Shown here: piece by piece, positions 9,685 to 60,147 of the stretch | Position numbering within the stretch: the first letter of the stretch is position 1 | How the letters are laid out: every line of letters starts with the position of its first letter | DNA from: an uncultured Clostridia bacterium | Lineage (GTDB): Bacteria > Bacillota > Clostridia > Lachnospirales > CAG-274 | DNA: 64,000 bases | Assembly: GCA_947589665.1 (NCBI GenBank) | Contig: CANQBJ010000003.1 | Coordinates: 1-64,000 of the forward strand | Direction: 5' to 3' | The notes under the pieces: model-generated | What the model was told of the DNA's origin: nothing | The model's input: only the letters and a program-made list of their open reading frames with translations | The model's database searches: none | Translations under genes and position numbers: made by a program

Positions 9685-9955
9685 AAATTTTTGTTTATAT
9701 GAATAGGTTCGACCTCTCAGTCAGCCCCGTTCACAGCTATTTTTATATAAGCTTTTGCCGCGGCTGACAGCTCCCCTTGCGAAGGGGAGCTTTAGGTTTA
9801 TTCCTTTCAAAGCCGCTTATTTACTTAGAAAAACAACAATTAAGCTGCTGTCACAGCCTTGCGGTAAATAACCTCCCCTAGCGTTAGCGTCGGAGGGGAG
9901 GGGGACCATGCGTAGCATGGTGGAAGGGTCGCTTTACTAACATAAACAAAAATTT
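9685..9955. repeat. MITE-like intergenic element, copy 1
   Basis: 271 bp bounded by the inverted repeat AAATTTTTGTTTA (9685-9697) and TAAACAAAAATTT (9943-9955). Inside: CGACCTCTC near the left end paired with GAAGGGTCG near the right end, GTCAGCC/GGCTGAC, a CTCCCCTT/AAGGGGAG hairpin, a CCTCCCC/GGGGAGG hairpin and a small CCATGC-GTA-GCATGG hairpin. No ORF is present. Copies 2 and 3 are at 23234-23566 and 31453-31713. The 13-mer AGGGACTGTCGCA is found on both sides (9670-9682 and 9969-9981). With its flanks this accounts for the gene-free stretch 9591-10026. Confidence 0.85.
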
Positions 9956-22887: not shown

Positions 22888-23235
22888 ATGAAAAAACATA
22901 TAATGAAACTATCACCCGAACCTCTTAAAAAAATCAAAGCCGGTCTAAAAACAATAGAACTTCGATTATATGATGATAAGCGAAAAAGTATTTCTGTAGG
23001 TGACATTATTATTTTTATCAATACCGAAAATGAAAACGAAACTGTATCGGTTATTGTTAAAAATCTTTTTGTATTTGAAACCTTTGATGAATTGTATAAG
23101 AATTTGCCTTTGCTGAAATGCGGTTACACTGAGGATAATGTTGATAAAGCTTCACCTGATGATATGGAGGCATATTATTCTAAGAAAAAGCAAAGTCAAT
23201 ACGGAGTGGTTGGAATAGAAATAGCTCTTATATAA
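22888..23235 (+). CDS. ASCH domain protein
   Basis: 115-residue protein with the ASCH fold, a PUA-like RNA-binding or base-binding barrel: KIKAGLKTIELRLYDDKRKSISVGDIIIF near the N-terminus is diagnostic. ATG at 22888 follows GGGAG; an upstream TTG is not supported. Its TAA (23233-23235) shares two bases with the left end of repeat copy 2, so the element edge supplies the stop codon. Likely role in RNA or modified-base handling; substrate unknown. Confidence 0.8.
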   Translation: MKKHIMKLSPEPLKKIKAGLKTIELRLYDDKRKSISVGDIIIFINTENENETVSVIVKNLFVFETFDELYKNLPLLKCGYTEDNVDKASPDDMEAYYSKKKQSQYGVVGIEIALI

Positions 23236-23566
23236 ATTTTTGTTTATAGGAATAAGTTCGACCTCTCAGTCAGCCCCGCTCACAGTTATTTTTGTATAAG
23301 CTTTTGCCGCGGCTGACAGCTCCCCTTGCGAAGGGGAGCTTTAGGTATGCGCCTTTCAAAGTCGCTTAAATAGTTTAAAAAGCGATAATTTTGCATATAT
23401 CACAGCCTTGCGGTAAATGACCTCCCCTAGCGTCAGCGTCGGAGGGGAGGGGGACATTGCACCGAAAGATTTATCGGACGACCGTCAGGTCGGCTTTCGG
23501 CAAAGCCGAAAGTGCTGACGCCGAAGGTTGGTGGAAGGGTCGAGTTACTAACATAAACAAAAATTT
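23234..23566. repeat. MITE-like intergenic element, copy 2
   Basis: 333 bp with the same terminal inverted repeat (23234-23246 and 23554-23566) and the same internal blocks as copy 1. It is longer because the small third hairpin is replaced by a larger structured arm (about 23455-23530) including GGCTTTCGG...CCGAAAG. Fills nearly all of the gene-free stretch 23236-23639 together with the hairpin at 23601-23634. Confidence 0.85.
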
Positions 23567-31452: not shown

Positions 31453-31713
31453 AAATTTTTGTTTAGTAGAATAAGTTCGACCTCTCAGTCAGCCCCGTTT
31501 ACATCTACTTTTATATAAACTGTTGCCGCGGCTGACAGCTCCCCTGATTAGGGGAGCCTTAGGCGGGTGCTTTGCAAAATCCCTTATTTACTTAGAAAAA
31601 GCAATACCAAATCCACTGCCATAGCTTTCCGGTACACAGCCTCCCCTAATCAGGGGAGGGGGACCGCCGTTAGGCGGTGGAGAGGTCTATTTTACTCAGT
31701 TAAACAAAAATTT
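31453..31713. repeat. MITE-like intergenic element, copy 3
   Basis: 261 bp with terminal repeats 31453-31465 and 31701-31713. GACCTCTC near the left end is perfectly paired with GAGAGGTC near the right. The two inner hairpins, GCTCCCCT-GATT-AGGGGAGC (31538-31557) and CCTCCCCT-AATC-AGGGGAGG (31640-31659), have complementary loops, and the third is CCGCC-GTTA-GGCGG. Sits directly between the holA terminator and the end of leuS; with that terminator it fills 31392-31736. Confidence 0.85.
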
Positions 31714-59429: not shown

Positions 59430-59458
59430 TTGACAAACGAACATATATATGGTATAAT
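59430..59458 (+). promoter_or_regulatory. promoter of the 59534 gene
   Basis: TTGACA (59430-59435), 17 bp, TATAAT (59453-59458). The leader holds a CAAGGAAAT/ATTTCCTTG hairpin before the ribosome site. CGAACAAACATTTG (59419-59432) overlaps the -35 and resembles the SOS box at 12 of 14 positions. Confidence 0.8.
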
Positions 59459-59533: not shown

Positions 59534-59839
59534 ATGAATATCAGAAAATTATGTATCAGATTATTGACAATTATAACATTATCATGCGTTTTGTTCTGCG
59601 TTAATTTCTTTATAAGCTGGAGCGGAAATGTAGCATTTGAAAGTATGATGAGGGCAACACTCCCGTTTATAGCGCTTGCCTCTGTTTGCTGGCTTGTTTA
59701 CGGCATTGTGGCAGACGGTATTTACAAAGAAAATGTTAAAAAACATAAGGCTATAAAGAGAAGAGCAGCTGTAAAGAAAAATAATGTCATATATCTGGAC
59801 AGCCTTATATCCTTAGGTTATTATAAAAAGGCCTGCTAA
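59534..59839 (+). CDS. small two-helix membrane protein
   Basis: 101 residues: a short basic N-terminus, two hydrophobic helices (about 9-29 and 44-64), then a very basic stretch (KKHKAIKRRAAVKK) and a C-terminal Tyr/Leu-rich helix. ATG follows GAGGAGG. Has its own strong promoter. No family recognised; a membrane regulator or stress protein is possible. Confidence 0.65.
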   Translation: MNIRKLCIRLLTIITLSCVLFCVNFFISWSGNVAFESMMRATLPFIALASVCWLVYGIVADGIYKENVKKHKAIKRRAAVKKNNVIYLDSLISLGYYKKAC

Positions 59840-59863: not shown

Positions 59864-60147
59864 GGGCAGCTTTTTGTAAGCTGTCTCAGCGTGTCGATAA
59901 AATCGACACGCTTGAAAGAAATGCATGCATTTCTTTCAGTCTAATTAAGGTAGGAACCAGCCGTGTTTTCTGTAATTTTGGTGTTAAACACCAAAATTAC
60001 AGAAAAGTTCCTGTCCTCGGAGGAAGTGAATTCCTCCTGCGGATTAAAGTCTGCGACGCTTTTTGCAAGCCGTTCATCTCGCTGATTTCTTTTTGAGTTA
60101 AATTTTTACTTTTTCGACAGTCTGGGGCAGCTTTTTGTAAGCTGTCT
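59864..60147. repeat. hairpin-rich segment between duplicated terminator arms
   Basis: A 23-bp sequence beginning GGGCAGCTTTTTG is repeated at 59864-59886 and 60125-60147. Between the two lie four hairpins: AGCGTGTCGAT-AAA-ATCGACACGCT (59888-59912), a loopless 26-bp palindrome (59913-59938, centre ATGCAT), a 41-bp hairpin with 20-bp arms and a single-base loop (59966-60006), and GGAGGAA/TTCCTCC (60019-60037). It looks like an inserted mobile-type DNA element or a structured RNA; no ORF. It fills the gene-free stretch 59840-60226 with the promoter and terminator. Confidence 0.75.

Follow-up and report, generated by a model that had tools for sequence, protein, structure and literature searches.

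A miniature element in uncultured Clostridia that duplicates terminator hairpins, and its likely IS1182-family partner

Layout of the locus

The window, the whole 64,000-nucleotide stretch of uncultured Clostridia DNA analysed here, contains a dense run of hairpins between two neighbouring genes. To the left lies a 101-amino-acid open reading frame (59534–59839) without a Pfam match, which has a similar counterpart at the orthologous locus in congeners; to the right lies an rpiB/LacAB-like sugar isomerase gene. Each neighbour is preceded by a promoter-like site (for the 101-amino-acid frame, a consensus-like 12/12 site at 59430–59458), so that the hairpin segment has a terminator on one side and the next promoter-like site on the other. 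Two identical, direct 23-bp copies of GGGCAGCTTTTTGTAAGCTGTCT flank a 238-bp unit, and by a terminator scan the T-run remains beside the right copy alone. The initial annotation had described hairpins between duplicated terminator arms over 59864–60147. The copies and the hairpins proved real and five hairpins were found, but each supposed arm is a complete terminator hairpin, and the annotated span comprises the inserted unit (59887–60124) together with both duplications. The two palindromes noted earlier, of 26 and 41 bp, are also present, the former as a perfect palindrome (P2) and the latter as the inner near-palindrome of P3. The features are as follows.

59864–59886, + strand: left copy of the target hairpin (23 bp), a target-site duplication; a terminator hairpin without the T-run, identified as an exact direct repeat
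59887–60124, + strand: 238-bp non-autonomous mobile element, bounded by the duplication, the empty site and the alignment of 36 copies
59887–59902, + strand: left terminal inverted repeat CAGCGTGTCGATAAAA, from the sequence and the element end in aligned copies
59888–59912, + strand: hairpin P1, an inverted repeat; two pairs with double-sided change
59913–59938, + strand: hairpin P2, a perfect 26-bp palindrome and inverted repeat; little variation in the alignment
59952–60012, + strand: compound hairpin P3, with an outer 6-bp stem and an inner 41-bp near-palindrome (59966–60006)
60019–60037, + strand: hairpin P4; double-sided change in 6 of 7 pairs
60038–60059, + strand: near-invariant 22-nt core motif TGCGGATTAAAGTCTGCGACGC, followed by TTTTT; contains candidate hairpin P5
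60038–60055, + strand: candidate hairpin P5, terminator-like in the terminator scan
60110–60124, − strand: right terminal inverted repeat, CAGACTGTCGAAAAA on this strand, from the sequence; near-identical to the IS1182 end CAGTCTGTCAAAAAA
60125–60147, + strand: right target-hairpin copy, with the T-run after it; an exact direct repeat, terminator-like in the scan

The 238-bp unit ends in terminal inverted repeats (CAGCGTGTCGATAAA / CAGACTGTCGAAAAA). No open reading frame of at least 60 amino acids occurs within 59887–60124, and the unit therefore carries no transposase gene. Its right-end motif CAGNCTGTCRAAAAA matched 73 times in seven related genomes, compared with a single match for the reversed pattern. 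Judged by these sequence features, 59887–60124 is a miniature transposable element (MITE).

Insertion sites, spread and an IS1182 element with the same ends

The closest orthologous locus, in the congener G001, lacks the element and has one hairpin, GGGCAGCTTTATAAGCTGCC; the loci of three other congeners (G002–G004) are likewise without it, bearing out the earlier suggestion of an insertion. Further empty sites, each with one hairpin, were found for other copies (for example L116 versus L193, L154 versus L012, and L181 versus L168; rows from other repeat families were left uncounted). There is thus strong support for reading the segment as an insertion that duplicated its hairpin, and the target-site duplication and empty sites expected of a MITE are both present.

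For 125 distinct full copies both flanks were available, and a score of at least 10 was counted as a duplication. A flanking duplication was found in 94 copies, compared with 1 of 125 when the right flanks were swapped; the remaining 31 had no recognisable duplication. The 94 duplications were 10–43 bp long (median 24), and their two copies were 98% identical on average. Symmetric positions were paired at a fraction of 0.74, as against 0.40 in shuffles, and the best-palindrome axis was exactly central in 57 duplications and off-centre in 37 by the simple measure used. The duplicated unit is usually a whole palindromic hairpin, as exemplified by palindromes of 39 bp (L092), 29 bp (L095), 33 bp (L106) and 24 bp (L100), and palindromic duplications of 21–35 bp occur in other genera. 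The target hairpins have no evident common sequence. The initial annotation had also raised a possible recombination hot spot; the data support terminator hairpins as insertion targets. None of 31 non-identical pairs of hairpin copies fitted better when one was inverted. We observed no clear bias of element orientation relative to terminator polarity (T-run on the right only in 26, A-run on the left only in 19), which is the outcome anticipated for a target recognised as a symmetric hairpin.

A search elsewhere in the same genome yielded about 17 long matches to the element (E ≤ 1e-35) plus many fragments, and the stretches around matches were taken for analysis. Within the genus all five genomes carried the element; within the taxonomic family 34 of 48 genomes did, with 11 of 11 genera represented. 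A scan of contigs with one exact pattern found it only in uncultured Clostridia metagenome-assembled genomes labelled Lapin, whereas the family-wide search gave this wider spread. Elements in other genera end in inverted repeats resembling CAGGCTGTCGAAAAA / CAGACTGTCAAAAAA. According to the initial annotation, finding these hairpins in distant genera at the orthologous position would speak against an insertion; elements of this kind do occur in such genera, but the examined copies lie at other sites. One viral-collection contig (L363, IMGVR_UViG_3300035512_000922) has the core motif near 782–803, inside a related element, and may be a prophage or host-derived.

A candidate for the mobilising enzyme was first recognised in another genus, where element ends lay beside the start of a DDE transposase, and was then confirmed by protein search. 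Pairing exact end motifs within the genus returned only short pairs of about 200–400 bp, and in other genera, looking for duplications near end motifs turned up short elements only. In G001, contig C1 carries an intact IS1182 element (L317) of 1511 bp with an open frame for a 475-amino-acid transposase. The protein matches NCBIfam NF033551 (IS1182; E = 1e-124, 417 bits against a cut-off of 270), contains the domains DDE_Tnp_1_6, DUF772 and DDE_Tnp_1, and is an IS1182-type DDE transposase. This element ends in CAGTCTGTCAAAAAA / CAGTCTGTCAATAAA and is flanked by 25-bp copies of the hairpin ACCGCCGCATTTATAATGCGGCGGT. A MITE copy adjoins it across the same hairpin, giving three hairpin copies in all, so that an autonomous partner sharing both end motif and hairpin is found in a congener.

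Using one transposase query, we detected relatives in 12 of the 48 family genomes, the MITE's own genome included, compared with the 34 that hold the MITE; other IS1182 versions may have been missed by the query or lost. The IS1182 copies found in the MITE's own genome appear to be damaged: the first carries an in-frame stop, with hairpins that differ between its two ends, and the second has a split reading frame. Comparable behaviour is seen in Enterococcus, where the annotated IS1182 element ISEfa7 encodes a transposase related to the G001 protein (50% identity by tblastn) and has ends, CAGACTGTAGACAAA, that resemble the MITE end CAGACTGTCGAAAAA. At three distinct sites on Enterococcus plasmids, the duplications on either side of ISEfa7 measure 20, 25–27 (two bases of the 27 may belong to the element end) and 22 bp and contain whole terminator hairpins. 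ISEfa7 differs in being an autonomous insertion sequence (IS) of about 1.5 kb, whereas the MITE is gene-less with a structured interior. Overall, the sequence comparison makes the IS1182 link well supported, and an IS1182-family transposase is the likely mobilising enzyme of the MITE.

A structured interior with a 22-nucleotide core

The segment is predicted to fold far more strongly than chance on either strand. On the + strand, the folding energy was −125.4 kcal/mol compared with −79.5 ± 5.6 for shuffles (z = −8.2), and on the − strand z was −9.8. A consensus structure of 57 pairs was paired in 99.7% of cells across 36 aligned copies. Double-sided compensatory changes affected 16 of these pairs, a count equalled in none of 500 shuffles, and slid controls gave 1–3. 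Of the six helices counted, four had such changes (P1, both P3 stems and P4) and P2 and P5 had none. P3 alone contributed eight pairs, spread over both stems, and in other genera its sequence is exchanged wholesale. P5 is invariant in the alignment, which makes covariation uninformative for this hairpin. The pattern of changes indicates that the interior hairpins are maintained as structure. At the gathering threshold, Rfam 15 gave no match in the window, and permissive searches yielded sub-threshold hits to unrelated families only.

Among 295 genomes of the order, 33 contained the core TGCGGATTAAAGTCTGCGACGC with no more than one mismatch; they span 13 genera, almost all in one family, with up to 55 sites per genome. 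A reversed control pattern had no match in the 295 genomes. The core is absent from the IS1182 element, with which the MITE shares only its ends; by this comparison, the interior of the MITE is not IS-derived.

Copies also vary in extent. L032 (G000:C10:10209-12248), L022, L019 and L023 are longer, with extra nested stems between the common hairpins, apparently reflecting modular growth of the interior. At the other extreme, L034 and L035 are minimal, about 90 bp long, with hardly anything left beyond the left hairpin and the right end.

Two accounts of the interior, both compatible with movement by an IS1182-family transposase, can be weighed against these data. A credible one, to which we give somewhat less than an even chance, is that the hairpins act as DNA, for example by assisting extrusion, the pairing of strands or assembly of the transposase, and persist because they improve transposition. 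The main helices are indeed near-perfect DNA palindromes, hairpins are retained in elements of very different interior sequence, and copies without the interior exist, as expected if its parts are helpful rather than essential. However, the three conserved G-T pairs of P5, within the core, would become A-C mismatches on the other DNA strand, and the IS does without the core.

These same G-T pairs, which allow P5 to pair only on the + strand, would suit a + strand RNA. The initial annotation had considered a folded RNA, and the element could primarily be a structured non-coding RNA gene spread as a passenger, its conserved interior working as an RNA in places such as the 3′ ends of host transcripts while mobility only accounts for its distribution. 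The compensatory changes seen in 16 of 57 pairs and a core nearly unchanged over 13 genera yet missing from the IS would agree with such a gene. Common C-A positions in P3, by contrast, correspond to G-T on the − strand and would suit that strand instead; the orientation counts relative to terminator polarity (26 versus 19) show no clear preference, and no Rfam family was matched at threshold. We regard a primary RNA gene as rather doubtful. Taking element and interior together, we put forward only tentatively that a mobile, structured element of RNA or DNA, whose 22-nt core is strictly conserved, has been retained for as long as the bacterial family has existed while riding an IS1182 transposase into terminators, with an interior function selected either for the host or for its own mobility. 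The conserved interior represents an unassigned structured family of gut Clostridia.

A model for hairpin duplication

We consider it highly probable that this segment is a MITE, that an IS1182-family DDE transposase acting in trans moves it, and that the enzyme recognises its targets, DNA hairpins and mostly intrinsic terminators, by their structure. The sequences document the insertion, the empty sites, the matching ends of IS and MITE, the presence of both at the same hairpin and the palindromic duplications of variable length; from these, we infer cruciform extrusion, joining at the 5′ feet and mobilisation in trans. In this model, cruciform extrusion of a palindromic terminator would present two stem-loops; the element's 3′ ends would be attached to their 5′ feet, one to each, and gap repair would then copy the entire hairpin, making the duplication as long as the hairpin.

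Most transposases that generate duplications produce target duplications of fixed or nearly fixed length. Here, length tracks the target hairpin, both across more than 90 copies and in ISEfa7, a second, annotated IS1182 element; this pattern points to an enzyme that recognises DNA structure. Since many relatives within the bacterial family behave alike, the comparison provides evidence for a transposase guided by the shape of DNA and not by its sequence, and the natural, compact substrate makes the question of mechanism directly testable. The insert leaves a terminator intact on its far side; insertions of this kind may therefore do almost no harm, a possible reason for the high copy number.

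Structure-based targeting of hairpins and terminators, with no sequence consensus, has been described for IS1272 and TnSha1 of Staphylococcus, which also belong to the IS1182 family (PMC5678879, PMC4923244). With IS1272, the target stem-loop is lost by deletion or replacement and no duplication results (PMC5678879, PMC4923244), whereas the MITE duplicates the whole hairpin; the flanking duplications in 94 of 125 copies do not agree with stem-loop replacement of the IS1272 type. Duplication of the hairpin was drawn, only as a possibility, as branch b of the IS1272 model by Wan et al. 2017 (PMC5678879). Our data fit this branch and support what had hitherto been hypothetical. The review of Siguier et al. 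2015, as cited in these two papers (PMC5678879, PMC4923244), noted that some IS1182 members target palindromes.

Alternative origins fare poorly compared with IS1182-mediated movement. Cas1-like integrases and Y1 (IS200/IS605) transposases both act at hairpins; the long hairpin-like duplications recall the duplication of CRISPR repeats, and the terminal hairpins recall IS200/IS605. By this analogy, a different enzyme of either type might move the MITE. We judge this very unlikely, because the ends are inverted repeats matching those of an IS1182 element at the same hairpin with the same duplication, and because the related ISEfa7 behaves alike elsewhere. Tandem duplication or recombination of a terminator with DNA growing between the copies, suggested in the initial annotation and compatible with the direct repeats alone, is refuted by the dispersal of the 238 bp, which recur at numerous unrelated sites where the local hairpin has in each case been duplicated, and by the empty orthologous sites; the two hairpins are a target-site duplication.

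The element resembles other bacterial MITEs in being short, gene-less and multicopy, with terminal inverted repeats and target-site duplication. It differs in that the duplication length follows the hairpin rather than being fixed, and in that its interior, with a structure conserved across genera, did not arise by deletion from the IS1182 element found. REP-targeting insertion sequences (PMC1525189) likewise use repeated palindromes as insertion targets; their targets form one class of repeated sequence, whereas the target hairpins of the MITE lack an evident common sequence. Judged by the literature in one open-access library, the duplication variant and the conserved interior are what is new here, and the element class is not; there may be an earlier report elsewhere.

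A further repeat family of about 227 bp, with a GGCTCCCCT...AGGGGAGCTGTCAGCC hairpin, lies at 9685–9911, 23234–23460 and 31453–31679 of the window. The initial annotation had set the hairpin segment apart from this MITE family, and the two are indeed unlike, although the segment is itself a MITE-type element. At two loci in relatives (L201 and L098), the element studied here is apparently inserted in hairpins of repeats similar to the 227-bp family.
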